The notes beneath the pieces are model-generated. The model searched no databases. It saw nothing but the letters and a program-made list of their open reading frames with translations, and had not been told where the DNA came from. From Sphaerolaimus hirsutus (lineage: Eukaryota; Nematoda; Chromadorea; Monhysterida; Sphaerolaimidae), in contig OZ038450.1 in NCBI GenBank assembly GCA_964036195.1, positions 6,140,701 through 6,204,700 on the forward strand: a DNA stretch of 64,000 bases. Direction: 5' to 3'. Shown one piece after another: positions 32,755 through 61,563 of this stretch (positions are counted from its first letter, which is position 1; every line of letters begins with the position of its first letter). The translations under genes were made by a program, and so were the position numbers.

Positions 32755-35700
32755 ATGGGTGATGCAAATAAACTCGAAAAGGGTGAAAGTTTGAAAGCTG
32801 TAAGCGTTACTAGTGACACGAAAACTGGCAAAATCGACGTAAAACCCGCGCCAAAATATACCTACTTGTCAGCGTTTTTGAGAACATTTACACCTGAGGT
32901 TTGTTGGTGTGGGATATAATATGTATGCACAAATGAACTTAAATGGTTTGCTGGAAACATGTCAGTGAATGCGGTGTAAAATGCTGTGTAAGCCGTGTAA
33001 AATCATAACTGCACAATGATTGAGCCAATAAGTTGCATTGTTTGTTACGGTAGGCGCTCTATGTTTTAACATTCTACTTTGAAGCACAATTTTAGTATAT
33101 TTATTTGTTCTTCTTTTTTTTCTGAGATAATTTTTCTTACGATTCACTTCTGAAATTTCGTCAGTCATTTCGCGCAACATAATATCACCATCATTTACGT
33201 TTCAAGAATACCACAACGTGACCGCAATCTTGCATACCGTATTTCCTCGAAATACCCTCCCCGCTCCCCCCCCCACGGAATACCCCCTCAAAATGGGCAC
33301 TATGAATTGATTAGCCCCCCCTCGAAATACCCTCCCCCATTTTGGGTGTATAGGGAACGTAGACGACAAAAGCTACGGTATGTGATCCGGGCAATGCAGA
33401 ACAGACGTTAAAAACAGTGACTGTGTTACGTTAACACCTGTTTTATACCATCTACATATGTAAGTTTATAGACTCTTATTTAGTGATGGAAAAGCGCCAT
33501 GGCGCTGGCGCCTGGCGCTAGCGCCAAAGCAAAAAGCGCCATGGCGCTTTTGGCGCTTGACGCTAAAACGCTCTGGCGCCATTGGCGCTTGGCGCCGGGA
33601 TCTGAGAAAGCGCCGTGGCGCTTTTGGCGCTTGGCGCCATTTCCTGGTGGCGCTATTGGCGCCTGGCGCTGGCATTTAAATTAGCGCCAAAAAAGCGCCA
33701 ACCGTGGTTATAAAATTCTCATAATTCAGTGAAAATCAACAAACCAGCTGATCAATTTTGAGAATAACAGAATAAATATAGATAAATATAAGGATATAAG
33801 GGAACATTTATATTAATAAAATATTGATTAGGTAATATTTGGGGCAAATGTATAAACCCTATTTCCTCAAACCCCCACCCCAGGGGGTTTATTTTTTCAG
33901 AGTGCAAATTTTGAGGGGGGTATTTTGAGGGAGGGGTATATTACTTCGCCAGGAATTTTCGTATAGGATTGTGTAAAGAATAGGCATTTACATACCCATA
34001 ACTGGTAATAAACATGACTAGGAAAATGGGATATAATAGTACCTACACTCCTGTTTACCTCGATCCGCACCTTTGTGATTTTTTTATAAAAAGTTTTGTC
34101 ACACCCCCCCACCTAACTTTACAGTGAATTTCATCCCATACAAAAAGTAGCCCAAAGAGTTGCCTAAATGCCCATTGGCGCACCCCCTATTGTAACGCCA
34201 TGTGGGCTGTGTAAATGGCCCACACATTTTTTTATACCAAAATGCAGTGATCACCTTTTTCCATACGCGTTTCGTAAAATAATTATATTCTGTCAGTCAG
34301 GGCCGGAAAACTGCTTGGAAGACATAAAAAAGTCCTAGCTTAGTGCCAAATGCCATTTCAACGGCTTATTTAGAGATAGAAATAAGATTTGGACATTTTC
34401 AATTTGTTCAGATTTGTACAGCAGATCACGATCAGCTGTGTTTGTGATCGCTTTATCTGCTCATGCTACATCTGTTCACACAGAGTATGCTACTGTCTGA
34501 AAGAGAAATCCTGTGGCATTTTTTTAATACTGACTCCACTTGAATACAGCCCCCCACACCAGAGAATTGAAGGAGCAAAATTCAAAAACAATTGCTCAAT
34601 TCTTCTTACTACTAATAAGAGTCTTATTCATGGTGCTTATTGTTGCGTTTTTCGACGTCTGCGTATGTTACAAACCACAAATTAGTACTGGGAGTTAAAA
34701 AATTTTTTGGCGAAATAATAAGACCCCCTCGAAATACCCCCCTCATTTTACCCCCAAAATTCTCACTCTGAAACAATCACCCCCCGGGGGGAATTTCGAG
34801 GAAATACGGTGACCAGTTCTGCATCCTCAAATGTAAACATGAATATAAAACCGATACACATTTTCAGGGCCCCCATCCAATCCCGGGAGAAAAACAGCGA
34901 CACCACAGCGAGGCACCTACCCCAGCCAAAAGCAGGCATGGGAAAGGATCGAGATCGCCCAAAACTCCCAGGTATCACTCCCAGACCCTGTTAAATGTCA
35001 AATGTTATGCAAAGTGTCAAACGTCATGTAAAATGCCCTTTAAAATGGCAAACAATTGTGCCATTTTACAGGGCATTTACATGGCTTTTGACACTTTGCA
35101 TAACATTTGACAGTTAACAGGGTCTGGGAGTGGCCGCAGGGCGCAGTCGCGCAAGCTGGGCGTCATGATCGGCGTGTTCCTGCCGTCCATGCAGAACGTG
35201 TTCGGCGTGATCATGTTCCTCAGGTTGCCCTGGATCGTGGGCATCATGGGCGTGCCGCAGGCGTTCACCATGGTCTTTCTGTGCTGTTTGTGTGTGAGTT
35301 TCGTGAACTGTAATTGAAGGAGTCAAGTAAAAAGTCAGGTGTAAAATGCCACGCAAAATGTCACACAAATTTGTCAATTGACATGCGATGTGGCAAAATT
35401 TCTGTAATAAAATATTTAATTTTTTGTTTTGATTGATTGACATGACTTTTGACACTTGACTTCACACTTAACAGGGCTCGTGACTACCTCCTGTAAAATT
35501 TCGGCCCATTTTGAAGATCTTGGTTCATTTTATATCATTTGCGGCACACCGCTGCCATGCGCACACTAGTTGACGATGACATCGGATCTCATCTGGTTTT
35601 CATTCAAATGTTGTTGATGGATCGTGGAACGATGTTCAAATGCACATACGCGGAACGATGTTTAAATGCTTTTCGACATTACTGCATGTACACTTGAAAA

Positions 35701-38700
35701 TAGTCGTTAAATAGTGACGTCAACTACTCAGATACCCGTCAACTAAAATGTCATTGGACATGGAAATCAGTTGACACCCATTGCATGTAGCACCATTATC
35801 AGCACATCTCACACCGCATCTCCTCAGACTTTGCTGACCACGCTGGCCATCGGCGCCGTGCTGACCAACGGGCGCATCGGCACTGGGGGTCCGTACTACC
35901 TGATCAGCCGGTCGCTGGGGCCGGGGGCGGGCGCCGCCATCGGGCTGCTCTTCTGCGCCGCCAACACCATCGCCGTCGCCATGTACGTCGTTGGCGGCGT
36001 CGAGATCGTCCTCATCTACCTGGCGCCGGAGGCTGCTTTTTACGGTGAGAGGGGTGTATTATATAGCTTATTGGTTGATGGTCGAAATCCCGCGTTTTGT
36101 CAAGTGATAGGTCGAAATTCGACGTTTTGTCAAGTGATAGGTATGATATTGAGTAAGTGCCAAGTCAAATGACCAGGTTAATATGTGGAGTAGTGATGTA
36201 AAAGCGCCAATGTGCTGGAGCTTGGCGCTAGCACCAAAGCAAAAAGCGCCATGGCGCCATTGGCGCTTGGCGCCTTGCCCAAGAAAAGCGCCACGGCGAT
36301 TTTGGCGCTTGGCGCTATTTTTACCCGGCGCCAGGAACAAAATGCCTGGTGCTGGCGCTTGGCGCTAGCGCCAAAGGAAAAAGCGTCATGACGCTTGGCG
36401 CCATTCTGCTGTGGCGCCATTGGCGCTTGGCGCTAGAGGTCGGAAAAGCGCCACGGCGCTTTTGGCGCTTGGCGCCAAAGTTCTGCTTTTTACATTACTA
36501 ATGTGGAGGACTTTTCCACTGATCTATGAGTGATGGTAAATCTATGAATCAAAATGCTTGTCACTCGCTGTTTACTTCTCAATTGAATTACGACTATTAA
36601 ATCCACCGTATTTCCTTTAAATACCCCGAGGGGGTTTAGTTTTCAGAGTGCAAATTCTGGGGGTCATTCAATGGTGGGGGTATTTTTTCCTCAGCTAGAA
36701 AAACCTAGTGATATTTCGAGGGGAGGGAGTTAATTCAAGGGGTAATATTTCGGGGAAATACGGTATGAACCACATTTCTTGTTCCTTGTAGGATTGGTCT
36801 CCCTCACAACTTGACAAAGTGCGGAATTTCCCCATGCTGCAATTGCGGATCGACTCCGCCCACTTTTTCTCTGTGCTCGTAGGCCGCGCCGCCATCGCGC
36901 AGACGGGCTGGTTCGAGCCCATGACCAACTCGATGCGAGTCTATGGCACCGCCTTTCTGATAATCATATTCATCATTGTCATTTTGGGCATCAGCTTTAC
37001 GCAGGTGAATTTACCCTGAAATTCGGTTGGAATGTAGGAACACGCACGGTTAAGGGATATCTGCGTGACCTGGACGGGAAAAATTTCAGGATCCTTACTT
37101 CCGTGTCGGGCGATTTATGTTTCAATTTGATGTTAGGGCCGGCGCGGCGTAATTTACCAGATCAAGTATGTACTGAGGATGGCGAAAATAATATCTTTGT
37201 CACTTCCCCTTCACCTCGACCATAGTCAGAATCGCCGGATGAAAACAGGTTGCATAATGTCGCTGCACAGACTGCTTGTTTATTTATGAGCATTTTAAGA
37301 TTTAGTAAACTCATGAAACAGCCTTGAATACATTTGAGTTCACTAGTATAACTCATTTTCACGTTTCATCAACTGCAGTTGACGAACACTTAATTCCAGT
37401 AAACAGAAATGCAATTCAATTGTGATTTATGAGTTTACTTAAGTTTTAGTTCGCGGTCAATAAACTAGTGTGTGCAGCGCCAATTCCCAACGGCGAGAAT
37501 TCGGTGCGCATGTGGACTTGTGATCGGGGGGGGGCGAGGGACATTTTTGAGCGGGGGACTGTTTGCTTATTGAGCCTGGTTAAGGGGGAGGGGGTCAGCC
37601 CCCCCCCCCTCCCCCGAAAATTTTACCGACATGGTGACGGAATGGCATCATAGCGCTGCTGACGCCATTGGCGTCGCGCCAAAAAGTCGCTGATATGCAT
37701 GTAAATAAACATACATATAATCGAGCGACGAGCACGCCATTCCGTGTATTTTTTATAGAATCGGCAGTACGAGGACCCATTTACTTAAAGTATCAAGTGT
37801 GATGGAAAATGCCGGAAATTTGGCCTACATGTGCACTGGGTTTACATGCGCACCGGCACAGACCATTGTCAACCCCTCAGGCGCTCGCACCAATGTCGCT
37901 GATCGGCGTGGTGCTGGGCATCACGTGCATCTACATCGGCGCCATCCAGAAGACTGTGCAGAGGGACTCGGGGCCCTACGTGTGCCAGGTGGGCGGGTTA
38001 GGACGTTACATCGTGTCGAACATCATCTACTCTTGCATGTGGAATAATCAAACATAGGGTTGGAAAAAAAACGTTTTTTTTTAACTCGATGTTTTTTTTT
38101 TAAAAGCTCCCAGATATGACCTAGTGTCAACATATATAGGTATATCAGACACTGGCAATACTCTGTGATGTTAAATATGACCATATAATGGCTGTGGAGC
38201 CAAGGGATAGCATTATAAGTGGTGATTTGTGTCAAAAATATCCATTTTTCGTCGACATATCGTTCGTATATCGCCTTATAGTCGAATGTTCGTGACTTCA
38301 GGTAAAGTTTGGCACGGAATGGTGATCAAACAAGGTTATAAAAGGAGGTTGTTACTCTGGGAGTGAAGTTACACACTGTGGAGGTACATGGAAGCACATT
38401 ACCACAATATTATATATTACAGCAACATATGTCGGCTTATTCACCCATGGTAGCACATAGAAATGGATGTTTTGATACTAAAAATGCAACAAAACCAATG
38501 AAAACAACCACCAATGTCAATTTGTGTGTGAAATTGCGCGCTTGCGCGCAAAAATTTTGCAAAATACCTAGTGCTTAGTACTAAAAATTTAAGCCGATGT
38601 TTTTTTTTTAAAAAAAACATTTCGGGCGTCATGTTTTTAAAAAAAAAAAAAACGTTTAAAAAAAAAAAAACGTTTAAAAAAAAACATCGGCCAACCCTAA

Positions 38701-41700
38701 TCAAACATCGATTTGAGAAATTATCAAATATCGAATATCGACTACTTTTTATATCGAATGGCGGCTATCGGAAAAGAATTCGACGAATATCGATATCGAC
38801 GGTCCACATGCACATAGATATCGAATATTTACCTATATGATAAAGTGATAACGTCGCAACCCTACAGGTGGGCGGGCGACTGGTCAAGTGGGAGGCCTAC
38901 ATACCCAAAGACCAGTGGCGCACCAGACAGCCCTCCCTAGACGACTGCCAGGTGCCAGTCCCGGACCCTGTGAAATGTCAAGTGCCTTGCAAAAGTGTCA
39001 AAAGTGTAAAATCCCCTGCAAAATGGAAACCGTACGTTTGCCATTTCACTGGGCATTTTACATGATTTTTGACACACTGCATGACATTTGACATTTTACA
39101 GGGTCTGGGACTGCCCCCAGCTGTACTGCACCGCGAACAGAATCGACGTTCCCCTGTTTGAGAAGTACTGCGTGAGGAAGGATGATGTTCAGAGCGCGTT
39201 CAATGATTCGACGGTCGGCTGTCGCCCGGAGGACAGAGTTGGTCAGTTGTGTTGTGTAAATACAGCTTCCAGTTGGAAGAGATTTTTTGATCTGAAATGC
39301 AGTACTTTTTGATAAGTTTACGAAAGCTTAAAATATTTTTCATAAAATTGTCCGAACACGTGAAAAAATTGCGTAAATCATTTTGACCATGAAATTGTAA
39401 AAGAAAACGTGATTTTTTATGTCAGACAAGCAGAGAAAAATTGGTGTTTGTGCACATGCATTCTTCTGTATTTTGTATGTACCTATGCATAAAACAGAGA
39501 CAAGTACTTTTCATCACGAAAACGTGAATGTATTTCTTCTCTATCATAGCATACATATTTTTGATGTACATTACGTATGTCAAAACATTTCAACAACTAG
39601 CTATCTGTAAAACGTTGAACACCCATAACACAGAGCGCCTGTATTTGATCACGGACGAGAAGACAAATGTAACCAAGCTAGGTGAGCTATTTATTTATTG
39701 CCTTTGTTTAAACTTTTGTAAAAACAAGTGGCAGCTAACACTGGTACAGCACCAAAGTTTTAGAAACTTACCACTACCACTACCAAAATAAGAAAGGTTA
39801 CCACTGGCACTACCAGATTAAATAATTCTTGATCGCCATGAACATTAGTTGACAGATTATTCATTCGGTGAACTCAAATGTGTTCAAAATAGATCGAAAT
39901 CTGAGTTTCCGAAATCTTCTCGGTGTACTAAATAGTGTCTGCGCAGCACCAATACAACATTATCTGAACAAACCCCCACTCCACCCCAGTGACATTCATG
40001 TGCCTGCCGCACTTCAAGTCGAACAGCACCATGTGCGTCCGCGGCACGCCCGGTATCAGCGGCAGCGAGCTAGCTGAGAATGTCCACGGACATTATATGG
40101 TAGAGGGGGAGGCGGAACTTGGTGTTGACGCGTGCAGGTTCAGCCAGACTGAGTATATTGAGGTGTTTCAGGTGGGTATATCGACCTATGTGGTATGGTG
40201 TGTTGACTGCGCAATTTTCGATGAAATTTACCATATCCTATGTGAAAAAAGAGACATAAAACAATAGTATTTATCGTTTCCTATTACATTACATGGTTCT
40301 CACCATCCATTTTTGGATTTGGTGCACATTTTTATCACGTGACGTCACATCCATCAAAATACAGTTTGTAACTACTTAACACTCATTGTATAGCATTTAG
40401 TGCAGTCAGTACACACCCATGGTGGGAATTTTTGAGAGAATATTGATCTAGTAGATACCAATTGTTCTGTTCTGTTACAGGACCTGTCGACAAATTTCTT
40501 CCTACTGATGGCCATTTACTTCCCATCGGTGACTGGCATTTGCACCGGTCAGCTACTTCAACTAGGAATTTAACCACCCCTATCTTAACCACAAATTAAA
40601 CACAACCTACACCAAACTTAGGCGCGAACATGTCTGGCGATCTGAAAGACCCTCAGCGCAGCGTGCCTTGGGGCACTTTGGCTGCTCAGCTGGTGCCACT
40701 CCCGGACCCTGTAAAATGCCCTTTAGAATGTAAAATGTCGGGCATATTGTCAAAAGTCATGTAAAATCCCATGGTATACCCCAGCCGCTTAACACCCTGC
40801 ACGCGTGGTTCCCGCTGGAAGCGTGCCAACGATTTTTTACGCATGTGAATTTCATAAAAAGATGAAAAAGTCATCTCTGTTATAACGCTAACTTATTTAC
40901 AATTATGATTTTATTATCTTTTATACAAAAATCGCATGCTTTATCATAATTGGCACGCTTCCAACGTGAGACATAAATGAGTGCGATGGCAGAGTATCAT
41001 GTCCGCCGAGTATAAATGTAAAACGACCTGTTCATTTCACAGGGCATTTTCCATCACTTCTGACACTTTGCATGACATTCGACGTTCTACAGGGCATTTT
41101 ACAGGGTCTGGGACTGCCCCCAGGTCACCTCTGCCGTCTACCTGAGCTACGTGGTCATATTCGGCGCCGCGTGCCGCCCCGACTATCTGCGCGACAAGTA
41201 CGGCCACTCTGTGGGCGGGTCCATGGCTGTCGCTTGGCTCGCCTGGCCCCACCCATATGTGGTCATTATCGCGTCGTTTTTCAGCACGTTCGGCGCTGGT
41301 ATACAGAGTTTGTGCTGTGAGTTTTTGTCGTGTTTGGGGGGTTGGGGGTTGGGGGTGCGGTATATACTTTGGCTGTTTCTGGATAGGGTTCAAACGGGAT
41401 TGACTTTTCGGGATCGGGATTGGTTTTTTCAAGTTCAGTTAGTGATTTTGAACATAAAAGGTGTGCAAGCAGGCACAAAAATTTGAGTGAAAGTTGAGGC
41501 AAAATTTGCTCTACATAGGAAGGTAGATATTGAGCTGGGTGATCTGCCGGAGGAGAGGGTGGTTCCAAGCATCCAAGCATCTCGCGTCCAAAAAGATAGG
41601 TAACCAGTGCCTGGGATAGATATTTAGCTGGAGCGTGATCCCATCATAGATTCTTGTGTTGCATGAGATCCACATTGACGAGAGGTCCTTCCATGCAGCC

Positions 41701-43085
41701 GCGCCCAAGTTGCTGCAATCGATCGCCATCGACGACGCGTTGCCGCCGCTGCGCGTTTTCGCACGGACGACCCGCGGCGAGCCGCTCTTCGGACAGATCG
41801 CGCTGGGCGCCGTGGCGCTCGGGTTTACCCTGCTGGGCAAGCTTGACTTTGTTAGTTGATTTAGAAGTGCTCGGGGGAGGGGTTTTTGTTATATAATACT
41901 GGGGGGTTATTTGGGGATGGGTTATTTTTTCGTCGGAATTTTTGGTAAGATTCATCAACTTCGTGATTCAAATGGGTTTTTCGAAGGGGTTTTCCCAGGA
42001 TTTACAGCAAACCCCATCTGCCTACATCACAAATTGATGTGAATAAAAAAGGCCATGTGCCTGTAGTCATGTAAATCCGCTTGATATGTATACCCAGTCG
42101 ACATGTAGACCCGCTGGGCATTAATTGGGGGTGTACATTTTTGAATTAACTTATCACTGATCATTACTTTAAAAGTGACAAGTAAAGTCCTCCATTGTCA
42201 CTTTTTAACTTGTCATTGACAAGTAAAAAAATTTTCTTGTCAGGTAACAAATGTGAAAAGTAAAAAGTTTTTGTTTGAATCAAAAAGTGACAGGTTAACA
42301 CCTTTCACTTGTCACATTTCACTTTTATCAATTTGAATAAATACTACCGTATTTCTTCAAAATACCCCCAGGGGGTTTATTTTTTCAGAGTGAGGTTTTT
42401 GAGGGGGGTTAAAACAAGGAGGCGGGGTATTTCGAGGGGGGGTCTTTTATTTCGCCAGAAATTTTTTGAAATCCCAGTACTAAATCGTACGCAAACGTCG
42501 AAAAATGCAACAAAAATTGCCATTTATAAGACTCAGATGACTTGTATAAGTGTGTAGACGTATAAACACTGTTCTCACATAACAGAGTCATCGTTTATAA
42601 CGTGTGTTCTGCATTGTCCGGATGCCTCTGTGATTTACATTCTCTATACACTAAATTTGGGGGGGGGTATTTCGAGGGGGGGTTTATAAGTTCATAGTGA
42701 CCATTTTGAGGGGGGTATTTCGAGGGGGGTATTTCGAGGAAATACGGTATGTATTTTTTATGATTTTTTATTTATTTAATTATGCTTGACATGTATGCCC
42801 CAGCTACATGTGCAGCGAGTCTACATGTTGACCGGGGTACATGTCCAGGGATCCTACCTAACGTCCCAAAGACCTCACATGTTCCAGATCGCGCCAATCG
42901 TGCAGCAGTGTTTCCTGTGCTGCTACGCGGGGCTGAACCTGTCGTGTCTGCTGTCGAGCGCCGTGGCCGCGCCCTCCTGGAGGCCGCGCTTCAAGCTCTA
43001 CCACCCGCTGCTCGCCGCCTTAGGATTTCTCTTGTCCCTGTTTCTCATGTGGTGCGGCAGGTGGATCGACAGGGCCTGTGCGCTG
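32755..43085 (+). CDS. KCC: KCC-B N-terminus and 12-TM transport core
   Basis: Exon 1 ends YTYLSAFLRTFTPE, as in KCC-A. Exon 2 is split. Its first part (34868-34971) is a His/Ser/Pro-rich hydrophilic stretch unlike KCC-A; the second carries TM1, GVFLPSMQNVFGVIMFLRL, which keeps the usual Asn (residue 102). TM3 (LTNGRIGTGGPYYLISRSLG) and TM6 (FPSVTGICTGANMSGDLKD) keep the K+-site Tyr, Pro and Thr. The extracellular loop has sequons (TNVT, SNST) and conserved cysteines. Exons 42888-43085 have PSWRPRFKLYHP. The low identity before TM1, against near identity in TM3 and TM6, suggests an old duplication under transport-core constraint. Confidence 0.91.
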
Positions 43086-46000
43086 GTCTGTTTTGCAATG
43101 GCGCGTTTATGAGTGGCTCTATTTTGAAACAGTTTTTAAATTGGAATCGTGCCAACGATGGCTTACAATGCATTTGTTGACAATTTTGTTGCCATTCCTA
43201 TTTTCACCGTATTACAACAAGTGTTATACGCATTATTGACACGCTGCTAATGTAGACAAGAATAATTGTGTGCATAGGGTCACCGGAATATAAAAATACC
43301 ACTGTCCATCGTGCACTGTTTACCGGATTTTTTCCATTATAACACCAGTTTGCTGAGTATTGCTCAATTTTACATTGCTTTATCGATGTTTGCTGGAAAC
43401 TTGTAATAAAAATAAATGAAAAGGAGTTTTCCAGCTCTACTGAAATTATTATTGTGTGTGATGTAACAAATTTTTATTCTCAGTGGAAATATTTAGGCAC
43501 TTTATGAGTTGATTGGTGTTGTGCATATGTTGTGGGGTTTACCGAAACTTTGTGCTCATAGTTATTGTGTTTGCAATGATGTTGTGTTATCATTTATTTA
43601 TGTTACATAACATTTTTATTCTTGTGCAGGGCCATTCCCAAACCATGTAAAATGCCGTGCGAAATGTCAAATATCTTGCAAAGTGTCTCAAATCTTCAAA
43701 AAGCCCTGTAGAATATCCGGTAAAAATAAAATTTGACATTGACATGTCAAAAAGCATTTTACATTGCTTTTGACCTTTCAAATGACTTTAAATGCTTTGC
43801 ATGACATTTAACAGTTTACATGATTTGGGACTGGCACCAGGAATTCTACGTTTACACATTTACTGTCTCTATTATTGTAAACATGTATCATTGTATATTG
43901 TATGTACTTTCTGCCACTGGTGCCGTTATCCTTCGACGCCGCCTGCTCAACACTGCGCCGTGCAACGCATACGCCCAGAGCGATGTAGGCTCCCTACGCA
44001 TGTAAACCCTCTCGCCATGCAGACTCGTAGCAGGGGTCTCCAGGGGGGGGGGGGCTGCATCCCAATATAGGTCGGCTACCTTTCTATCCCGGAGGCCCGG
44101 TCGGCTACCTTTCTATCCCGGAGGCCCGGTCGGCTACCTTTCTATCCCGGAGGCCCGGTCGGCTACCTTTCTATCCCGGAGGCCCGCTATTGGGCTATTT
44201 TCCTCTGTGCCCCCCCCCCCACATCGTTCAGCTTTCTATAAATTGGCGTGGAGCAAAATTTTGAGCGATTTTTCCCAAATTTTCACTCAAAATTGTTAAT
44301 TCTTGTTCCATTTAGTCAATTTCACCTTAAAATCGCTATTTTGGGATATACGTGGTTATATACCTATTATAGCTATATCTGACCTAAATACATGCCTAGC
44401 GGGTTTACATGTCTCCAGGCACAGGGCCCCCAGGTGCACGTTGTTGTTGGACTCGCAGGCGTGTGTGGTGATCGGGCTGGGCATCCACCTGTACGTGGTG
44501 TTCCGCGGCAGCCGCAAGGAGTTTGGCGACTCGATGGGGGGTCTGAAGCAAAGTGCCGCGTCGCTGGCGCTTTTTGTGCCCACTAGGGACTACCAAGTCA
44601 CTTATTGGTAGGTTTTGGGGTTGTTTCTGAAGCTTCCGCTGGATGCGATTGGATTTTGTTTGGTGACGCGGTCTGGTATTTTACCGCATTTCTTTGAGAT
44701 GCCGCTTGGTGGTCATTTTTTTGATGAGTGGAAATTTATTTTTCTAGAAACTAAGTAAAGAATGGGCTTTTACATACCCAACACTGAATGAATTCCACCA
44801 AACGGGACCTAGGTTTTGAGGGGTGTTGATCCTAAGTTCATTGGACCTGGGGTTGATTCAGGGGGTATTTTGAGGAATACCTATGTTTTTCAACACTGCT
44901 AGGCAGGTACCGTATCTCCTTATAAATAGAACGGTGCCATTCTATTTTTTTGTCAACTTTTTTACCTGCCGTTCTATTGGAGGCTGCCATTCTATTTTTT
45001 CATCAAACTTTTTCGCACAATGTTCATATGAACATAAATACATAGTATTTTTGTGAGACATGAGCGACACTTAATATCAGAGCATCAATTGAAACAAAAC
45101 CAAATGTGAAAACGACCCTGAATCATAGTTCAAAAACCCCATGGATGTTCTCCCAACCAATTTTTCAAATTATTTTGTATTTTGGCACTCTTACAACGTC
45201 ATTTCTACCTGCTGTTCTATTGGAGGTGCTTTTCTTTTCGTAAGTGTAAAGAATGCCAAAACCTGCCGTTCTATTGAAGGTGCCATTCTATTGAAGGTGC
45301 CGTTCTATTAGAAGAAATATGGTATTTGCTTTCAAAATGGCTGTTGTGTAGTGCCCGTAGGTAGGCACAGGGAGTTTGTGTAGACTGCTACCTCGAGTAA
45401 CTCGACAGGGAGGTTTTCGGCTGGATTTGCCATTCGTTTAGGTAATTATTTTTAACGTGTTAGAGCGAGTGGGTAGGGTTGCGAATGGTGGCGTCTTCGA
45501 TTAGGGTGAGTCGTGGGGAATGTTTTTTTCTGGTTTTAGAATGGCCTGTAGAGCTTCAAAGTCGCGACTTTGATGGCACCTGGTTGGTGACTGCCTCGCA
45601 CCCTGTAGCTGCAAAGTGTGTTGACTGTAGTGATGTATAAAGCACCAGGATATTGGCGCCATCGCCAACGATTTTGTTCCTGGCGTTTGGTGAAAATAGC
45701 GCTTTTTGTGGGCGTGTCAATTGCGCCACAGCTAGATAGCGCTAAACAGCAGAACGCCATGGTGTTTAGCGCTATGTCGCTTTAAAACCACTAGTGAAGT
45801 GACATTTGACAATGTAATGCGGTGTGTGACGCTGCAGTTGACAGGGTGCGAGACTTTCCTTCATGCCACATGTAGACTAGTGATGTAAAAGCGCCATGCC
45901 GCTGTAACCCTTACCGCTCATTAGTGATGTAAAAGTGTCATGGCGCTGGGGCATGACGCTAGCGCCAAAGCAAGAGGTGCCATGGCGCTTGGTGCTATAT

Positions 46001-49000
46001 TGCTGTGGCGTTTGGCGCCATGCTCATTAAAAGTGCCATGGCGCTTGCGCTATTCTTGAAGCGCCATTTTGGTCTGGCGCCATTGGCGCTGGGAGTCGGA
46101 AAAGTGCCATGGCGCTTGGCGCGAAAGTTCTGGCGGTTGGCGCCAATGTTCTGGCGCTTTTCACATCACTACCGCTCATGCTAGCGCCGGGTGCTTTTGT
46201 TCTTGGCGCCACCAAAAAATACCGCCGCGTTAAGTGCCATGGTGGTTTTCTTGGACATAGCGGTAAACGCCAATAGCACCATAGCAAAATGGCGCTCAAA
46301 GCCCCACGGTGCTAGTGCAAGGCGCTTTTTCAGTGCGAGCCATGGCGCTTTTACATGTCTATCTCAGATCTTCCCCACGGTTGGTGTTAGCGTCAATGGA
46401 GTTAGTGCCCTGCTCGCTGTTGGTGCAGTCGCAGTGTAAAAACCATAAAAAGACTGTTTGTTTGCTTGGCGCGTGGTGCGAATATTAAATGGCGTGACGT
46501 TTGACGCTAGCGCCAAATTGAAGACCCCGGTGCTGGCTGTATAACACCGTATTTCTTCTAATAGAATGGCTTACCTGCAATAGAATGGCACCTTCAATAG
46601 TTTGCTCTTTTGCACTCACGAAAACAATAGAATGGCAGCCTCCAATAGAACGACACCTCCAATAGAATGGATAAAAAATAGAGCGGCGCGGCCGCTAACG
46701 TTTTCGTACTTTTTACATTCTGTTTTGGTGAGAAACCGTCCTGAATATGAGTTATTCGAGGTACTACACATACTTGAGTATCTAGGTAAAACGACAAATC
46801 AACAACAAATCTAATCAATCAAACAAATCAATCTACATGGTCCGGCTGAAAAGTCCCCGGGCAGTGCTCGCCATTCGCGCTAGGGGTAAGCTACGGTCAT
46901 AAAATTTTGACAGGTTAAGATATCAGGTGTTTTGAGTTTTCACCCAAACTTTCGCCCCTCTAGCTCCACCCACTGCGGAACTGTGGGGGTTACAATTTCG
47001 GTCATTTTGTACTGATGTACAAATGGTGCTCTAGCCCAATGCTGCTTTAAGTTGTGATTAGAGATGGAAAAAGCGCCAGGCTTTTAGCGCCAAGCGCCAA
47101 AGTCCTGGCGCTTTTTCCATCACTAATCACAACTTAAAGCAGCGTTGAGCTAGAGCACCATTTGTACATCAGTACAAAATGACCGAAATTGTAACCCCAA
47201 CAGTTCCGCAGTGGGTGGAGCTAGAGAGGTGAAATTTTGGGTGTAAACTCAAAACACATGATATCTTAACCTGTCAAAAATTTTATGACCGTAGCTTACC
47301 CCTAGCGCGAATGGCGAGCACTGCCCGGGGACTTTTCAGCCGGACCATGTATAATCAACAAGTTGTATTTTTTCTAAAAATCAACAACATAAAGATGTAT
47401 TTCTTTCTATAAATGGGTAGGTAAGTATTTTTCATGAAAATGAGGGGGCCTGAATGGCAAAATAGTCTTTCTGTACTCGCAAAAATTAGGTACTCTAAAA
47501 AGGATCTGTACTCGCCTATACGCTTACTTTAGAGGGTACTCGAGTACAGTCAAGTATGTGTATGCATATTTACTCGGTACTCGAGTATGTGTACTTTTTG
47601 AGTAAAGGTAAATAAACATTAACAACTCTGGCAAAAAAGTCGTACTTGAGTACCTGGGTAAAATTCACTTACTCAGTCACTTAATCGAGTATAAGTAGGT
47701 ACTCGGTAAAAGGTACACGAATAAAGACTAAATAACAATTAAAAAAATTCGCAGCTGGCACCCGCGCATTCACATAATGGCGTGGGACATCGAGAAGCTG
47801 AAAACATTGGTGGAATTGGCAGCGCACCTGAAATTCAACCGGAGCTCGCTCGCTTTGACTTCTTTCATGCGAGGTGATCCTAGCGGTCAGTTTTTCGGTC
47901 ATAGACGCTTAGGGCTAGTGATGTACGCAGTGTTGGAAATTTGACGCTTTTCCGACCCGCGGTGCCAATTGCGCCAGAGCAAAATGGCGCTTAGCACCAC
48001 GGCGCTGTTTTTCTTTGGCGCTAACGCCAGTGGTAGGCGCTTTTGATGGGTATGGTGCCACAGCAATATAGCGCCAAAAGCGTCATGGCACTTTTACATC
48101 ACTAGTTAACATTCAACACTCTAGTTTAAATGTTGTGACAGATGTCAAACCTACATGCCGCCTACAGAGGTATTGTAATCCTTGAATTGTATTGTGCCCC
48201 TGGTAGCTGGGGCCGAAACATATGCCAAACGAAAAATAATTTTACTAGACACTTCGGTGTGCGTATGTACCGTATTACCTCGAATTATCCCCCCTTGAAT
48301 TAACCCCCCCCTCGAATTAACCCCCCCTCAAAATGGGCTGGGGAAATAATAAACCCCCCCTCGAAATACCCCCCCCCCCTTCGGATTGATGTAATGTAAT
48401 GTAATGTAATGTACATGATGTATATTACTGTTAATTTGCATTGCAGCTACACATAGAGTAGTTTGTGTAGCTATCTACGTTTTTATGTCCAAATATATCC
48501 TGTTTGGACACATTTATTACCTATTTTGGGTACGCAAATCCCTACTATTTACTACGATCCTTACGAAAATTTCTGACGAAATAATAACCCCCCCCCTCGA
48601 ATAAACCCCCCCCTCGAATTAACCCCCCCCTCAAATTTTGCTGGCGAAATAATAAACCCCCATGGGGGTATTTCGAGGTAATACGGTATTTGCTTTTGCA
48701 AACTCAAATGTTTTCAAATTTGTGTAGTACTTGATTGAACTTAATCAAAAATTGCAATACCATATTACCTCGAAATACATGGGGGTTTATTTTTTCGCCA
48801 GCAAAATTTGAGGGGGTGGGCTTATTCGAGGGGGGGTTCATTTCGTCAAAAATTTTTGTAAGGGTCGTAGATCATGTGTATGTGTCTATGTGTATTATAG
48901 CTGCGATACAAACTTGCAGTAATAAATACATCATGTATTATACATTGCATACATGACATGATGTACATTATTCCGGAGGGGGGGGGGGTTATTATTTCCC

Positions 49001-52000
49001 CAGCCCATTTTGAGGGGTAGTTAATTCGAGGTAATACGGTAAATTCAATCAACTACTACACTAGGTGGTATCTGTCAGAAACTGTTTATTGCTTTAGAGT
49101 GATTTATTACCTACACGTGGATCGAGCAAATCCGCGTCGCAGGCACCGAGTCGCTGCGGCTGCGGGTCGAGTCTGAGATCGACGAACTACGCAAGTTGGC
49201 TGAGGAGCACAGCTTCCGCACTTACGTCAAATTGTTTCGCCCGCCACCCGCCGCCAGTTTGTTGGCCTTGAAAAACCATTTTCTTAGCTTTTCTCTGATT
49301 TTGTGAGACCTAAATGCGGGTAATGCTGCTGAAAAAGTGATGCCGATTTCATTTTGATTGGGATTCTATTTTCACGCCATGCCGTATGAGATACTGTTCA
49401 ATTGAAGGCAGCCGTTCTATTGGAAGCTGCTGTTCTATGGGTGAATGGGTGCCAAAACCAGCCATTCTATATTGGAGGTATGCCGTTCTATTAGGAGAAA
49501 TGCAATAGATGTATTGTCGGAGCTGTGGTTCACACTCAGTTTCACAAATCCCACCTCTCCCCCCCCCCCCCGAACTCTGGCGTTTTTTTGTAAACACAAA
49601 CACAGCACATGGATCGCAGAGGGCAGCAGCGGGGCGCTGGAGCTGGACACGTACGTGCGTCTGGCGGCGCTGGGCCCGCTGCGCACCAACTGCGTGCTGG
49701 TGACGCGGCCGCCCTGGTGGCAGTCCCAAGCCCTGTAAAGTGTAAAGTGAGGTGTCAAATGTAAAGTCATGCGCAGTAAACTGTCAATTGTAATGCAAAG
49801 TTCAGTAATAAAATATTTTCTTTTTTTTGTTCTGATTGACACGTTACTTTGCATTTGACTTTACATTTGACACTACTTTACACTTTACATGGATTGGGAC
49901 TGCCGCAGTTGTCCCACGGCCACCATGAGCAGGCTCATGCACAAGCTGCTGCACTGCCCCGTCACGCTGCTCATCGCCCATGGTGAATACCGTATTTCTA
50001 CAAAAGACCCCCAGGGGGTTTATTATTTTTATTTTATTTTTTGATTCGTTGGCTCCATTCCAATGGCTCAATTCCAAGTTTTGCGTTGGTGCGTACCGTA
50101 AGACATTTTAAGTTGGTGTTTAAGACATGAGTACCGTATATCCTCGAATAAGTCCCCCTCTCGAATAACTCCCCCTCTCGAATAATCCCCTTCTTGAATA
50201 AGTCCCCCCTCTTGTGACTGTGAGGAAAAAATCCCTCCCTCGAATACCCCCTCCCACTCTGATGGGTAGATAACATTTCCACAACATTTCACATTTACAT
50301 GGTCGGGCTGAAAAGTCCCCGGGCAGTGCTCGCCATTCGCGCTAGGGGTAAGCTACGGTTAAAATTTTTTAACACGTTAATATATCAGGTGTTTGGAGTT
50401 TTCACCCAAAATTTCATTCCTCTAGCTCCACCCACTGCGGAACTGTGGGGGTTACAATTTTGGTCATTTTGTACTGCTGTACAAATGGTGCTCCAGCTCA
50501 ACGCTGCTTTAAGTTGTGATCATGAAACTTTGGCTAGTGTAAGTCACCAGTGTTGGCAATGTGCTGATAGTATTCAACACTTTCATCAACATTGTGATTA
50601 AAGTAAAATAATTATGCACATCAGGGTGATGTGCAAGAGACGTGGGAACTGTGATGGATGTTTTTGGTGATCATCTGAGATCATGTTGTATTGCAGTGAT
50701 TTTAATGTTGTTTTGAAATGTGCAGTAAATTATTATGTCAATTAAATTTCATTTGTGTTTCAATACTACTCTGTAGTGGACACATTACCTGTGTTCAACA
50801 GCAGTGTGCATGAAAAACGCCTCCTGTATTAACCTGTATTGACCAACCGTAGAGGCAGAATGATGAATTTGGTAGTGAGAGCAGTGACAGTAATGGCAAT
50901 ATGGACTACGCTTATGATATCATAGCTAATGTTGGTAAGTGCTGGCACATTGCCAACACTGGTGGCTTACACTAGCCAAAGTTTCATGATCACAACTTAA
51001 AGCAGCGTTGAGCTAGAGCACCATTTGTACATCAGTACAAAATGACCGAAATTGTAACCCTCACAGTTCCGCAGTGGGTGGAGCTAGAGGTGTGAAATTT
51101 TGGGTGAAAACTCAAAACACCTGATATATTAACGTGTTAAAATTTTATAACCGTAGCTTACCCCTAGCGCGAATGGCGAGCACTGCCCGGGGACTTTTCA
51201 GCCCGACCATGTACAAAAAACGTTTTATGTATTTAACATGTAAATATAAATATATATTATCTTGCAGCTAGTTAGCTTGAATTGTGAATTTTGTATTCCT
51301 ACAAATGATTATGTTACCAAATTTACCCTATTTGTGCAGTAAATTAATAATACCTTTTGATGAAAATTCTGATGAAAAATTAACTCCCCCCTCGAATAAC
51401 TTCCCCCTCTCGAAAAACTCCCCCCTCAAAAACTTCTGACGAAAAAATAATTCCCCAGGGGACTTATTCAAGGATATACGGTATGTTGCCTATGTATAGT
51501 GATGTGAAAAGCGCCAGAACTTTGGCGCCAAGCGCCAATGGCGCAAGAGCAAAATGGCGCCAAGCGCCATGGCGCCAGGTGCCAATGGCGCCACAGCAAA
51601 AAGGCGCCAAGCGCCAAAAGCGCCATGGCGCTTTTCGCTTTGGCGCTAGTGCCAGGCGCCAGCGTCATGGCGCTTTTACATCACTACCTACGTAGTAAAC
51701 TGTTGCCCGTGAACTATAATGGGCATGAAACCAGTGAACAAGTGAACAAGTAACCAAGTGAACAAGTAAAATCACAAGTAAAAATGTGCAGGAATGTCCG
51801 TGCCTTTAGGACTGCCCAATGACCCTCCAATGGAGTTTGGCTGCAGCATTGACATCTGGTGGATTCTGGAGCACGGCGATCTACTCGTCTACTTGGCACA
51901 AATTATCGCCAGACATTCTTACTGGAAATGGTACACAAAAGATATAGTTTTCATTCTATTACCCACCGCTAGTGATGTAAAAAGTGCCAGGACTTTGGCG

Positions 52001-55000
52001 CCAATGCCAGTCCCGGTGCTTTTTCTGTTTTTGGCAAGCGTCGGTGCCGGGTATTTTGTTCACAGAACGTTGGAAAAAAACTGCCACCACCACCAAGACA
52101 CCACTAAGCGTCAGAACGTGCCATGGCGCTTAGGTACTAAGCGCCAGCGGCGGCACAGGGTAATGGTGCAAGAAGCACCGGAAACGCCACCGAACAGGAA
52201 GCAGTCCCAGATAGGGTGTCAACAAAATCTGCACTTGCCGGTAAACGGAAAAATATGGAAAAATGAAAGGCCGGAAAACGGAAAAATTTGCTGAATATTT
52301 GCCGGAAACGGAAAGAATTTGCTAAAATTTTGCCAGAAATGGAAAAAATGCAGAAATTTATCCGGAAATAGAAAAATTTGCAGAAATCATGCTAGAAATA
52401 GAAAGAATGCACATAATTGAGAACCTGCACACATTTTTACCAGTTTGACTGAAACAGAAAAAAGAAAATTGAGCTGGAAAATGAAAAAACATTGGCAAAA
52501 CCGACAACTGAGCCGGAAAACGGAAAAAAGACTGAAAACCTGAAAATTTGGCCGGAAAACGGAAAATGGGCTGGAAAAACGGAAATGGAAAAAAATTTAA
52601 CAGCCGGAAAACGGAAACGGAAAAAAATCTGGAAAGGCAGAAAACGGAAAGTTGACACCCTAGTCCCAGACCATGTAAAGTATAATCTAAAGTGTCAAAT
52701 GTTATGTAAAATATCAACCAAAAATATATTTTAGTACTGAACTTTGCATAATAATTGACACTTTACATTTGTCTTGACCTCGACACTTTACTTTACAGGG
52801 TCTGAGATTGGCCACCATTTACCACTGCTACAGGTTTGGCTATTTTTCAGTGCCGAGTTGAGACTCTTCGTGGTGCTGCTGCCCGGTGACAAGGCTGTTC
52901 GGAAGTCAGTCGAGGCAGTAATTCGCAGAGCCAAATTGAGCGTCAGTTATAAAATGCTGCGACTGTGAAGTGTTCATCCCTAACTAAATGCCAACTTCCC
53001 TTTTTCAGCTGCAGACATTCTTTATCGAAGTGGACCACCTGGATGTAAGTTCAATTTGCAAATCTCAAATGAAGGTGCACTGTTTCGCACATAGGCCCGT
53101 TTCGCACACACATCATTTTTGTGCGAAACGGGCGTTTGTGCAAAACGGGTTTCATGCATGTGCAAAACGGGCGTTTGTGCGAAACAGGCTTACCTATGTG
53201 CGAAATAGCCCTGGCCCATCTCAAATGTCATGCAAAGTGTCAAAAGTCATGTAAAGCCAAATATCAAGTAAAAGAAGAAAATTTGTCATTTTACAGGAAA
53301 TTGCCCATGACTGTTACAGTTTTCATGACATTTTACAGGTTCTGGGAGCGTCCCCAAGCTGCATATGCTGCAAAAAAATGCAAATAACGCCACAGGTGCT
53401 GCCCTACACCGTGCACCGGACTGCGCGCACGGACTACCGCTGGCGGGCGTACAGGAAAATGCGCGTGTCGCCCAACTTTGCCACCGGCTTGCTGCAGATA
53501 GCAGCAGATTTGAATCGGGCAAAGACGCATCACGGTTAGCTTTGAAAAAAAGTGATGTTGAGAAGATGTAATTAAATATTATCTCAGAAAATCTATCAAA
53601 AATAAAATATAATTTGAATATCTGTGGAAAATCTCACCAAATTATTATTTACTCACCCCTTAAGTACAGAAAACGTAAAGTATTGGTTTCTTTTACTCAT
53701 GAGTAAACTGAGTAAACATATTTACCTCCCCCCCGGAAAATCTAAATGTGAGTATTTTTCAGAGATGCCACCCCAACTTTTATTCAAAATCACTGATTTT
53801 CATAACTTTTTGCATATTTTAAGCAAATTCCAGCTTGATATGGGCTTATATTTATATTACTTTTCGACAATTTTCCCCCTATTTTTTTGCATATTCTCTC
53901 ATTATTTTCTTCTATGCCTTCAAAAATCTATAAAATCGATCTGAAATACGTTTTCTGTACTGGTATACTTTCAAAAAGTATACGTAAAAGCGAGTACTGG
54001 AACTTTTTTTGGAGGAAACGTAAACGTATTTACTATGTACTCGAGTATGTATTTATCGAGTAAAAGTAAATACGTTTAAACAACTAAACACCTTCCCGAT
54101 CAAGTCCGGCCCCCAATTTTTTACCTTACTTCTGACGTCCTATCTACAGTTCTAGGACGCGCCAGAAGCTGAAACTTGGGGTAGATATTGGTGCAACCCC
54201 CCTCTAACTTCGCATGAATTGAAGGGGTCGCGGCGACCCCCTACAGTGTGGGTCGCCGAGTGCAAAAAAGTTTTGCAGCTTTTTTAGTGTCCCACACAGG
54301 TCCGGTCCCCACTGATTTCTTACACTGCGGGTGCCGTACCTCCAGCTGTGGGAGGGGTATAAATCTAAAATTTTGGGGATGTGTCGCCAACACCCCTCCC
54401 CTACTATACACTGGCCAGGTGGTTTTTGGCAACTCACCACAGTGTGGGGTGCAACGTTCAAAATTTAATAAAATGTTACTGTCCCACACAAGTACAGCAT
54501 CCAATTGAATTTCAAAAAATGGACACTTTTGTGTTGTTTAAACACTAATGTGGTTGACAATGTGAAATAAGCATGAAATATCCTCTAAAAATATCTTATC
54601 CAACCTAAAACTGGCCACCACATGAACCCCACCCCCCAAGTGGGTGACAAAAAAATCACTTTTCACAACTTTTTTATTAGACACTTGAACTGCTGGTTTA
54701 CAAAAATTTATAGGGAAGGGTTAAAGGTTTCAAATTGTGTAAACAACCTTACCTCCAAAATGCCTTCATAAGAAAATTTGCTGGGGGTAAATTTAAAATC
54801 ATAAATTTTGCCTATTTTTGTTCCTGCAATGATGTCATTTTTACAATTTGAAATTCACCCCCAGCAAATTTTCTTATGAAGGCATTTGTGAGGTAAGATT
54901 TTTTTCACAATTTGAGACCTTTAACCCTCCCCTATAAATTATTGTCAACCAGCCATTGAAGTGTCTTATAAAAAAGTTGTAAAAAGTTATTTTTTGTCAG

Positions 55001-58000
55001 CCACCCGGGGGGGAGGGGTTCATGTGGTGGGCGGTTTTGGGTGGGATAAGATATTTTAGTGGATATTTCAGGTTTATGTCACATTATCAAATGCTTAAGT
55101 GTTAAAACAACACAAACGTGTTCATTTTTTTAAATGCAATCTGGTGCTGGACTTGTGTGGGACTGTAATGTTTTAACAAACTTTTAGCGCTGTGCCCCAC
55201 ACTGTGGTGAGTTGCCAAAAACCGCCTGGCCAGTGTATAGTAGGGGAGGGGTGTTGGGGACACATCCCCAAAATTTTAGATTTTTACCCCACCCACAGCA
55301 GGAGATCCGGCACCCGCAGTGTAGGAAATCAAGTGGGGGCCGGACCTGTGCAGGACAGTGAAAACGCCGCAAATTTTTTTCACATATATGGCGACCCCCT
55401 CTATAGTGAGTCGCCGCTGCCCCATTTATTCATGAGGGGTAGTGGGGGGTTGCGCCTATGTACCACCCAAGTTTTAGTTTTCCATCCCTCCCACAACCGG
55501 AGATACGGCCTGCGAAGTGAAAAAAATAGGCGGCCGGACTTGATCGGGAAGGTGTTTATGACTGACAGTGATATTTCACACTGTAGAGTGGGAGCAAATT
55601 GGCAATGTTATATTACAGTAGCATATCACATTCACAGGTTATTATTACACAGTAGCATGAATAAATGAAGCTTTGACACTCAAAATGCCCGAACCAATGA
55701 AAACAGCCACCAATGGTAATGTGTACATGTGTACGTGTAAAACATTGCAAAATACCTAATGCACGTCTAACAGAAATTTTGCATTTTTGAATTTAAAAAA
55801 AATCATTTCCCACCCTGTGAATTAAAAAAATCTGACCTTTTTAAATAAAAATCAGTTGAAAAATAAAGCGCCATCCCTAATCAAGGCTGAAAAATCAAAT
55901 TCACCAACTTCATTTATTTATTTTAGTTACAAACCTGTTTACTCAAGAGGTAGAGTTGTCACTGAACTTACCAGGGGGCAATCCCAAGCTCTGTAAAGTG
56001 TCAAATATAAAGTCAAATGCAAGGTAAACTGTCAATTGTCATGCAAAGTTCAGTAATGAAATCTTTTCTTTTTTGATTCATCGACAGTTTACTTTGCATT
56101 TGACTTTACATTTGACACTTTACAGGGCTTGGAATTGCCCCAGATAACTTCACTTAGGTATATCTTACAAAGCCAATTAATTTACATTTATGCTACGATT
56201 ACAGCTCGGGCGTAAAATTCCAGCGTAAAATTCCATCGCAAAATTGATTACATAAAAGTGGATGATGATGCAGGTCTGCAATTTTTCATGGAGAATATGT
56301 TTATCAATACCTTCATTGTGTCCGAAGGTCATCATCCACAGTCACTGCATTTGATTGTGGAAATTCAAAAATTTCTATTTTACGCTGGAATTTTACGCCA
56401 GCTGAAGAAAAGTCAATTCTACGCCAGGTGATTGCATGCAATGACATAGCGTAAAATTGATTTTTCTTCAGCTGGCGTAAAATTCCAGCGTAAAATAGAA
56501 ATTTTTGAATTTCCACTATCAAATTGCAGTGACTGTGGATGATGACTCTCGGACACAATGAAGGTATTGCTAAACATATTCTCCATGAAAAATTGCAGAC
56601 CTGTATCATCATCCACTTTTATGTAATCAATTTTGCGATGGAATTTTACGCTGGAATTTTACGCCCGAGCTGTAATCGCTCCATTACAAATACACATGTT
56701 TATTACTTACAGAAAGAACACCGAGGGTCATGCCTTCTGTCATCAATAATGCCTTCTCCTTTATTTTGAACCCTTGATTTTCACTCAGGGTGCTTCAGAT
56801 TTTTATAGTGCCTTAAACAAATGAAAACTCGCAGATCAAGAAAGGGTGCTGCCAAAGAAAGCTAGTGAGTTTTTTTCATCAAAACTATTTTTCCTTGTCA
56901 ATTTCCTCCAACCTGATGGCAGAGTAGTGGTGTAAAAAGCACCAGAGCTTTGGCGCCATGCGCGCCATGGCGCTTTTCCCACACCCAGCGACAAGCGCCA
57001 ATGGTTCCAGAGGAAAATGGCGCCAAGGCCGGAAGCATTGTGGGGCTTTTTGGATTGGCGCTAGCGCCAGGTATTTTGTTCCTGGCACCGGCCAAAGATA
57101 TGCCAAACCAATGGCGCTTTACACAGGCATCGCACCAAGCACCAATGGCGCAGCAGAAAAATAGTGCCAAGTGCCAAAAGCGCCATGGCGCTTTTACATC
57201 ACTATGTCAGAGTGGACAGAACTTTCAAAACTTTCTCCTAAAAACTTTAAAATCTAGACCGCGTTAGCAGGGAATCTAAAAAAATCAACTGAAATCATAT
57301 GACAGGGTGCCGGATTGTTACCAGAAAAGTATTTTTACCTGCAACAAAACTTCTATCCTCACATCACAGATGCAGTATACAATGTTGGAGCCACGAAAAA
57401 GTTGAATGGATTTATGACAAAACACTCTAGCAAAAGCAACTTGGTGATTGGCAATGCGCCAGCTCCCCCAATGTCCTCTACGTTGGTGGGTCTATTTTAA
57501 TCTAAAAAACATTTTGAAACTTCTCAGATAGTGTGTGAACGCAGTATGATTATTTGAGAAAATATGGTATTTTTGGTTTTTGGTTATTTTTAACCTGGTT
57601 TCACCCTCTTCCTACATCACTTTCTAATCGTATAAAGGCATATTGTGCATACACACACTAGTATTCACCGTGACTTCATGTGAAAACTGAAAGTTTTTCA
57701 AATGCAAATAAATGAACACGGTTGAATGATTCAACTTAATTTAAATTAATGAAAGTTAAAAATTTAAATTAATGAAAGTTAAAATTTGAAAATTTGATAA
57801 CTAAAACACATATAGCACACAAAAAGAGTAGGCTGGATGTCGCCATGTCGCCATTTCAGTGTTCACATCAGTCACGGTGAAAACTAGTGTGTAGGGCCAT
57901 TGTTTCCAACTTACAGGTACCGCTATACATCCGTTATACAAACGCGCTGTTTGGCAATCTGCCGAGGACTTTGGTGGTGCGCGGCACGGACCGCGAGATG

Positions 58001-61369: not shown

Positions 61370-61563
61370 GGCGCAGTCCCAAGCCCTGTAAAGTGTTAAG
61401 TAAAGTGTCAAATGTATAGTCAAATGCAAAGTAAAGTGTCAACCGAAACAAAAAGAAAATATTTTATTACTGAAGTTTGAATGACAATTGACATTTGACT
61501 TTGCATTTGACTTTACATTCGGCACTTTACTTTACACTTTACAGGGCTTGGGACTGCCACCTG
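61370..61563 (+). mobile_element. Full-length introner-family copy (second subfamily), intergenic, with flanking direct repeat
   Basis: Ends GCAGTCCCAAGCCCTG and CAGGGCTTGGGACTGCCAC pair closely. The string CTGGGCG(CAG) stands at the left edge and again right after the right end, a candidate 7-8 bp target duplication that overlaps the left terminus by a few bases. The element interrupts the right arm of the inverted flanking duplication, so it is younger than that duplication. Confidence 0.75.

Follow-up and report, generated by a model that had tools for sequence, protein, structure and literature searches.

Four introns that are present only in KCC-B, one of a tandem pair of KCC-type cation-chloride cotransporter genes (KCC-A and KCC-B), are very probably copies of a non-autonomous DNA transposon that creates introns (an introner) and that resembles a miniature inverted-repeat transposable element (MITE). 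The genes lie in a 64,000-nt stretch of Sphaerolaimus hirsutus DNA (contig OZ038450.1), referred to below as the window. A first-pass annotation of this DNA had already proposed introner-driven intron gain, and the proposal is borne out by thousands of related ends in the genome, a 3-bp target-site duplication (TSD), empty sites in KCC-A, and exact excision predicted in unrelated conserved genes. Three points were overlooked at that stage. The acceptor AG derives from the target duplication and not from the element; introns 3 and 4 are preceded by CTG and end in CAG; and many copies elsewhere end in CTG, for which the expected intron is GT-TG.

Four KCC-B introns and their empty sites in KCC-A

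Both genes encode SLC12 proteins. The protein joined from the KCC-B exons matches Pfam AA_permease (E = 8e-37), and its top matches in the PDB are SLC12A6, A4, A5 and A7. Seventeen homologous KCC-A/KCC-B exon pairs were recovered using tblastn, and in 11 of these pairs, with 1,610 aligned nt, the exon DNA shows 74.8% identity. The four KCC-B-only sequences were found where the first-pass annotation had placed them (Table 1), with inverted-repeat ends present. All four belong, as had been claimed, to one family of terminal inverted repeats (TIRs): introns 1 and 2 fall in subfamily A and intron 4 in subfamily B by identity to the consensus, and intron 3 is A-like by eye.

KCC-A is uninterrupted at three of the four intron sites, as judged from tblastn and the junction sequences, and these sites are visibly empty. 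Excision restores the KCC-A exon lengths of 205, 264 and 171 nt exactly (the last worked out by hand). For intron 1, the divergence of the flanking exon is too high for an exact length comparison between the genes. When all four introns are excised the KCC-B reading frame is kept, and without excision the frame reaches a stop codon inside the element. Introns 3 and 4 keep the 5′ CTG, which conserves the Leu and Cys codons of KCC-A; the 5′ triplet is therefore retained in the exon, and the 3′ triplet supplies the last three bases of the intron. This arrangement predicts GT...CAG or GT...CTG borders, or equivalent ones displaced by one base.

Gain of the introns after the KCC duplication, as first suggested, is likely given that introns 1, 2 and 4 are 87–94% identical to their own subfamily consensus (intron 3 was left out as too long), compared with the lower identity between KCC-A and KCC-B exons noted above. 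The 4–0 distribution of introns between the genes did provide empty sites, but carries no weight as evidence in itself: it would arise by chance with p = 0.125 for two equal targets. KCC-A also holds a copy of the same family, which lies inside one of its introns.

A palindromic family with a three-base target duplication

Each copy consists of a CWG triplet (W is A or T), an element that begins with GTGSCAGTCCC (S is C or G) and ends with GGGACTGSCCC, and a second CWG triplet. The full element is ∼190 bp long and is a near-perfect palindrome. Its symmetry is broken at base 2, which is T at the 5′ end (GTG...) but reads G when the 3′ end is complemented; despite the near symmetry, a GT donor is therefore present on one strand only. 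The architecture recurs in 33 rows of paired ends within 264 kb (the window plus 20 loci of 10 kb), among which some rows overlap or repeat one element and several pairs are mismatched or degraded. An 8-bp duplication of the hAT type, which the CAG...CTG termini had suggested, was rejected when the paired-end list did not fit it.

Across the 348-Mb genome there are 5,198 occurrences of the end motif CAGTCCCRGACCCTGT and 0 of its reversed control. A genome-wide search for GTGSCAGTCCC gave 6,277 occurrences versus 113 for the control, a count that includes copies in ribosomal DNA (rDNA), with the first 21 of 100 listed places lying in the first 190 kb of contig C1. This region (C1:1-190000, loci L001–L008) is an rDNA array with units of ∼7.34 kb; L001, the locus examined, is rDNA, and all eight look identical around the match. 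The GTGGCAGTCCC of the rDNA has no relation to the element, and its presence raises the GTGSCAGTCCC count.

When both ends and both triplets were searched for together in one length class across the same 348 Mb, 346 CAG/CAG, 229 CTG/CTG, 130 CTG/CAG and 60 CAG/CTG copies were found. All reversed controls of these paired patterns gave 0, and chance is thereby excluded. The triplets match in 575 of these 765 intact copies and differ in 190, and the two are strongly associated (chi-square 193, p = 9e-44), as a target duplication would lead one to expect. GTG/GTG and ATG/ATG flanks also occur, rarely, and the 3-bp duplication therefore favours CAG or CTG without being restricted to them. One ATG/ATG-flanked insertion is present twice, ∼23 kb apart and with different inner lengths (L019 and L020, C1:1072100 and 1094950); this segmental duplication may be of use in dating the element.

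The consensus of subfamily A is 189 bp long and palindromic, and 51 A copies average 0.91–0.92 identity to it in each of the four triplet classes. Subfamily B is 192 bp long, and 11 B copies are ∼0.99 identical to their consensus; B is the younger subfamily. Among the listed rows of contigs C1–C3, classed by eye, mismatched triplets are commoner in the young B (35 of 95 rows) than in A (20 of 119). Mutation alone is therefore insufficient to explain the mismatches, and the middle base may be exchanged during transposition. CTG/CAG copies are twice as frequent as CAG/CTG copies, an asymmetry for which middle-base exchange does not account.

Exon insertions and the choice of acceptor

Eighty copies (69 A and 11 B) were sampled from the listed places in pieces of ∼500 bases. 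Their flanks were joined and translated; for 45 of the 69 A loci the sense peptides were compared with Pfam and, for some, with PDB sequences (the names Snu114, CNOT9, NSUN6, UBE2O and VMAT come from PDB titles, those of the other matches from Pfam). Eighteen of the 45 match a conserved protein across the junction. By triplet class, the numbers of junction-spanning matches, loci submitted and loci sampled are 2, 12 and 14 for CAG/CAG; 13, 23 and 35 for CTG/CTG; 2, 8 and 10 for CTG/CAG; and 1, 2 and 10 for CAG/CTG. The CTG/CTG matches are Oscp1, Rcd1, Sugar_tr, 7tm_1, GTP_EFTU_D2, Xan_ur_permease, E1_dh, Srx, kinase, M18, DOMON and Laminin_N, plus VMAT. Across the junctions of two CTG/CTG copies, human Snu114 aligns ungapped over 92 amino acids (aa) and human CNOT9 over 108 aa. 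The CAG/CAG matches, UBE2O (E = 0.0019) and NSUN6 (E = 5e-7, with only five residues left of the junction), are the weakest of the 18; CTG/CAG copies match AMP-binding and Mon2_C, and a CAG/CTG copy matches Cation_efflux. None of the antisense peptides, taken from 25 of the 69 A loci, matches a protein across the junction. Many of the examined copies thus appear, from their flanks, to sit within protein-coding exons as introns. Flank GC content, a stand-in for exons that is only suggestive, reaches 0.55 or more in 50 of 69 A copies versus 1 of 11 B copies.

Three further loci were not counted: L099, a putative phosphate carrier, for which no PDB match was obtained and whose Pfam match reaches only three residues left of the junction, and L092 (TPR, E = 0.012) and L107 (ARM, E = 0.027). 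At L009, L012 and L013, open frames of 1147, 2126 and 1471 aa reach the ends of the loci.

The predicted 3′ border is AG in the four KCC introns and is not AG in the 13 supported CTG/CTG copies and L081. Of the intact copies counted, more than a third would give an intron ending in TG. The GT at the 5′ border of sampled copies follows from the construction of the search pattern, and the supported copies all lie in the orientation that uses it. Selection for AG had been expected in the exon-rich subfamily, but was not found when the 3′ triplets of A and B were compared in the listed rows defined above: the CAG:CTG ratio is 69:50 in A (n = 119) and 60:35 in B (n = 95; p = 0.48). CTG ends are not rarer in exon-rich A than in B, which is mostly noncoding (50 of 119 versus 35 of 95), and an AG acceptor therefore looks dispensable. 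These counts suggest that splicing in this animal tolerates a TG ending in place of the AG that is normally held essential.

RNA folding was performed for 11 introns (the four of KCC-B and seven from the sample, each together with 20 nt of flanking exon at either end). Each forms one long hairpin between its 5′ and 3′ arms, with energies 49 to 99 kcal/mol below those of shuffled sequences (30 mononucleotide shuffles per intron). The outermost arm pair lies no more than six bases from the 3′ border in 8 of the 11, and an internal ACAG is fully paired in nine, three-quarters paired in one and absent from one.

We propose that the element, which would be mobilised by a transposase, usually inserts at a CWG triplet and generates a three-base duplication. 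In the sense direction, the first triplet would become the last three bases of the exon (CAG or CTG), the first bases of the element itself would serve as the GT donor, and the second triplet would become the intron end, such that loss of the element and one triplet would restore the coding sequence in any reading frame. Pairing of the arms along the whole intron RNA would bring the exon ends close together and would bury the internal ACAG, otherwise a possible acceptor. The spliceosome, after recognising the GT donor, would then use whichever triplet lies at the base of the stem. We lean towards the view that AG is dispensable for this whole transposon-made class, that the hairpin presents the 3′ border, that GT-TG introns are removed about as efficiently as GT-AG introns, and that there are probably hundreds of GT-TG introns in protein-coding genes, including that of Snu114, itself a spliceosome component.

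Several observations weigh against this interpretation. Sense and antisense peptides were submitted unequally (45 versus 25 of the 69 loci). One antisense match (L083, MICAL) stops a single residue short of the junction; on the matching strand a GTGGGT precedes the element by 13 nt and the match does not extend into the joined sequence on the far side, and this copy probably sits inside an ordinary intron. A PRP8-like locus (L048, C1:22173750-22174250) is a misfit, in that its Pfam match ends at the junction and its flanks presumably lack some two dozen PRP8 residues; perhaps recombination between introners deleted an exon in this region, or the copies are pseudogenes. (Similar copies lie within 20 kb, at C1:22184467 and 22192496.) Orientation by codon usage, applied to 49 A loci, left 28 undecided and called 19 sense and 2 antisense (L064 and L080); with 28 of 49 undecided, it was set aside as too weak a test. 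Splicing at GT...CTG we infer from sequence, and a shift of one base would yield the same mRNA. In five of the eight first-batch CTG/CTG genes the first downstream AG is in frame, and a scan of the last 60 nt of the element showed an in-frame upstream AG in L050 and L056. Only for the sugar transporter, Snu114 and CNOT9 can use of a different acceptor be firmly excluded.

These exclusions come from 14 loci that were checked for other acceptors. In 11 of them, splicing at an upstream AG would retain 19 nt and disrupt the reading frame, and L050, L056 and L070 additionally carry an in-frame AG deeper within the element. The first downstream AG is out of frame in the sugar transporter, E1_dh and Snu114; that of CNOT9 is in frame, but its use would remove residues of the run conserved in human. 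For the sugar transporter, exclusion is based on the lack of a nearby in-frame AG, and for Snu114 and CNOT9 on the conserved residues that in-frame use would delete.

Our high confidence in the introner applies to the mechanism as a whole, and the first two of four rival explanations contest only the TG and spliceosome parts of it, so that the probabilities given for them overlap with it. In the first, the introners are the same, but only CAG-ended copies are spliced; a CTG copy in an exon would then be a recent, broken or heterozygous allele not yet purged by selection, or would use a different AG. Ordinary introns in both KCC genes have GT-AG borders by eye, rare deleterious alleles are possible in an assembly, and in-frame AGs lie nearby at several loci. 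We nevertheless consider this explanation unlikely: subfamily A CTG/CTG copies are as diverged as CAG/CAG copies (identity to consensus 0.923 versus 0.912) and hence not younger, they occur in many unrelated conserved genes, and CTG ends are undepleted in A relative to B.

Improbable to a similar degree is hairpin-guided excision of the RNA without a spliceosome, as proposed for the non-canonical introns of euglenids, diplonemids or Amoebophrya. End-to-end pairing, direct repeats at the borders and indifference to the last two bases would all suit such a process, and the architecture has been described (PMC7789003 and PMC12621601). A palindrome, however, should work both ways. All 18 matches have GT at the 5′ end and none of the 25 antisense loci matches (fewer antisense peptides having been submitted), which argues for recognition of the donor. 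With all supported cases in the sense orientation, the donor is probably read, since a purely structural or DNA-level excision would act in either direction.

The latter point also bears on programmed elimination from somatic DNA with one triplet left behind, like the internal eliminated sequences of ciliates. We infer that such a system would need exact excision leaving one short direct repeat, as seen here, but it should ignore gene orientation, and copies are found outside exons too; we regard it as very improbable. Just as far-fetched is the idea that KCC-A lost ordinary ancestral introns into which transposons later inserted in KCC-B, for although family copies do occur within ordinary introns (the two antisense copies in Table 1 and probably L083), the element at the four sites is the whole intron, border to border, as it is in unrelated genes, and exact loss would be required at four KCC-A sites.

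Table 1. Introns, empty sites and other copies of the family in the window
Feature	Position	Strand	Details
KCC-B intron 1	34972..35139	+	168 nt, subfamily A introner; exon CAG, then intron GTATCACTCCC...GGGAGTGGCCG CAG; phase 2
KCC-B intron 2	38952..39120	+	169 nt, subfamily A; exon CAG, then intron GTGCCAGTCCC...GGGACTGCCCC CAG; phase 0; KCC-A site empty, exon total 205 in both genes
KCC-B intron 3	40693..41123	+	431 nt, A-like by eye; exon CTG, then intron GTGCCACTCCC...GGGACTGCCCC CAG; phase 0; another element in loop; exon total 264 in both genes
KCC-B intron 4	49717..49908	+	192 nt, subfamily B; exon CTG, then intron GTGGCAGTCCC...GGGACTGCCG CAG; phase 2; exon total 171 in both genes
KCC-A exon, empty site of intron 2	16895..17099	+	CTGCCAGCTC; tblastn, exon lengths
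KCC-A exon, empty site of intron 3	18709..18972	+	CAACTAGTCAC; tblastn, exon lengths
KCC-A exon, empty site of intron 4	23863..24033	+	CCCTGCTGCCCC; tblastn, exon lengths
Same-family copy within KCC-A intron	about 24126..24327	-	antisense; no exon insertion
Same-family copy within KCC-B intron	43629..43837	-	antisense; CTG/CTG if the 3′ end is one base short
Copy within KCC-B intron	52657..52814	+	degraded ends
Further family copy	55975..56141	+	3′ of the KCC-B exons found
Further family copy	61370..61560	-	CAG/CAG in its own orientation; 3′ of the KCC-B exons found

The second element nested in the loop of intron 3 occupies 40774-41039 of the window, and a related stretch lies at ∼13012-13226, just upstream of the KCC-A exons found. 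Another KCC-B intron contains a long palindrome (46834-47351) with arms of 75 and 190 nt that are 100% and 93% complementary.

The host was also assessed from a 14,754-bp contig carrying cox1 (C762, locus L089). AGA falls mostly at Ser and ATA mostly at Met positions of mammalian cox1, AAA at Lys and TGA at Trp positions. Judged by these positions, the mitochondrial code is the invertebrate code, which is known from bilaterians, and laminin- and VMAT-like genes agree with an animal host. An alga or a calcareous sponge as the source had been considered and was discarded on reading this code. On the same contig nad2 and nad1 lie on one strand, and cox1 followed by atp6 on the other (names by eye except for cox1).

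Comparison with known systems

The family makes intron birth in an animal testable: its elements can still be recognised, sites in a paralogue are empty, and the same intron exists in natural CAG- and CTG-ended versions. It bears on how strict the requirement for a 3′ AG is, on how a palindromic transposon avoids being a knockout mutation, and on the rarity of introner reports in animals. The CWG target forms both the exon border and the intron end, a simple recipe that couples insertion to exact removal.

MITEs of the PIF/Harbinger type such as mPing have a 3-bp target duplication, which is TWA in Harbinger. The element end GGSCAGTC presumably resembles that of mPing. The TWA duplication was not found here, where the triplet is CAG or CTG and rarely GTG or ATG. 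No description of this element family in an animal was found in the open-licence literature. With a border-to-border repeat, TIRs, a TSD, and empty sites in KCC-A and relative to Snu114 and CNOT9, it would be classed as an introner family.

Introners as described by Gozashti et al. (2022) are near-identical introns in many genes, with TIRs and TSDs in many families; that of Chrysochromulina carries its 5′ splice site and co-opts the 3′ site from a 4-bp TSD, and has no TIRs. In 835 genomes of animals and land plants, they were reported from two animal groups (PMC9860276). The present family shares with them many near-identical introns, TIRs, a TSD, and one splice site borne by the element with the other taken from the TSD. 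It differs in its 3-bp CWG duplication, its CAG and CTG acceptors, its animal host and its end-to-end palindrome.

GT-TG introners are known from Micromonas, where IE-B and IE-D, with 25 and 6 members (31), were called highly unusual, and where 34 other introns have TG or CG acceptors, most of them validated by expressed sequence tags (PMC3879977). The borders are alike; in Micromonas, however, length is very variable, and no hairpin or inverted repeat was found in the available text of that paper, whereas in the present case a single family often has the TG form. Isolated GT-TG introns have also been reported in human genes (PMC4176328). In Amoebophrya introners, inverted repeats of 8–20 nt pair the intron ends, direct repeats of 3–5 nt span the borders, and the borders are non-canonical (PMC7789003). 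All three traits recur here, but the Amoebophrya introners have no family-specific inverted repeats and no constant border, and ours form one family with a constant GT donor and conserved ends.

The nearest animal parallel in the texts consulted is Fritillaria borealis, which has AG/AC and AG/AT borders and a duplicated U2AF, and for which introner transposons were named as a possible source of weak splice sites (PMC13326754). In both animals a triplet (YAY there, CWG here) stands before the 5′ splice site and recurs as the final three intron bases. Unlike the AG/AY introns of Fritillaria, those described here have a GT donor and a CAG or CTG end, and the genome has one clear locus for the U2AF large subunit. 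Duplication of that subunit, the Fritillaria answer, was not seen in an exon-by-exon search: of 15 matches, none of which exceeds the family cut-off singly, four together make up one locus (C6:10838482-10841607) and the remaining 11 are weak and dispersed. A CTG/CTG copy (L109, C6:10858490-10858990) lies ∼17 kb from this locus.

Introners in general and the GT-TG introners of Micromonas were thus already known. What is new is the animal host, the CWG mechanism, and the occurrence of GT-TG at such frequency in core genes.

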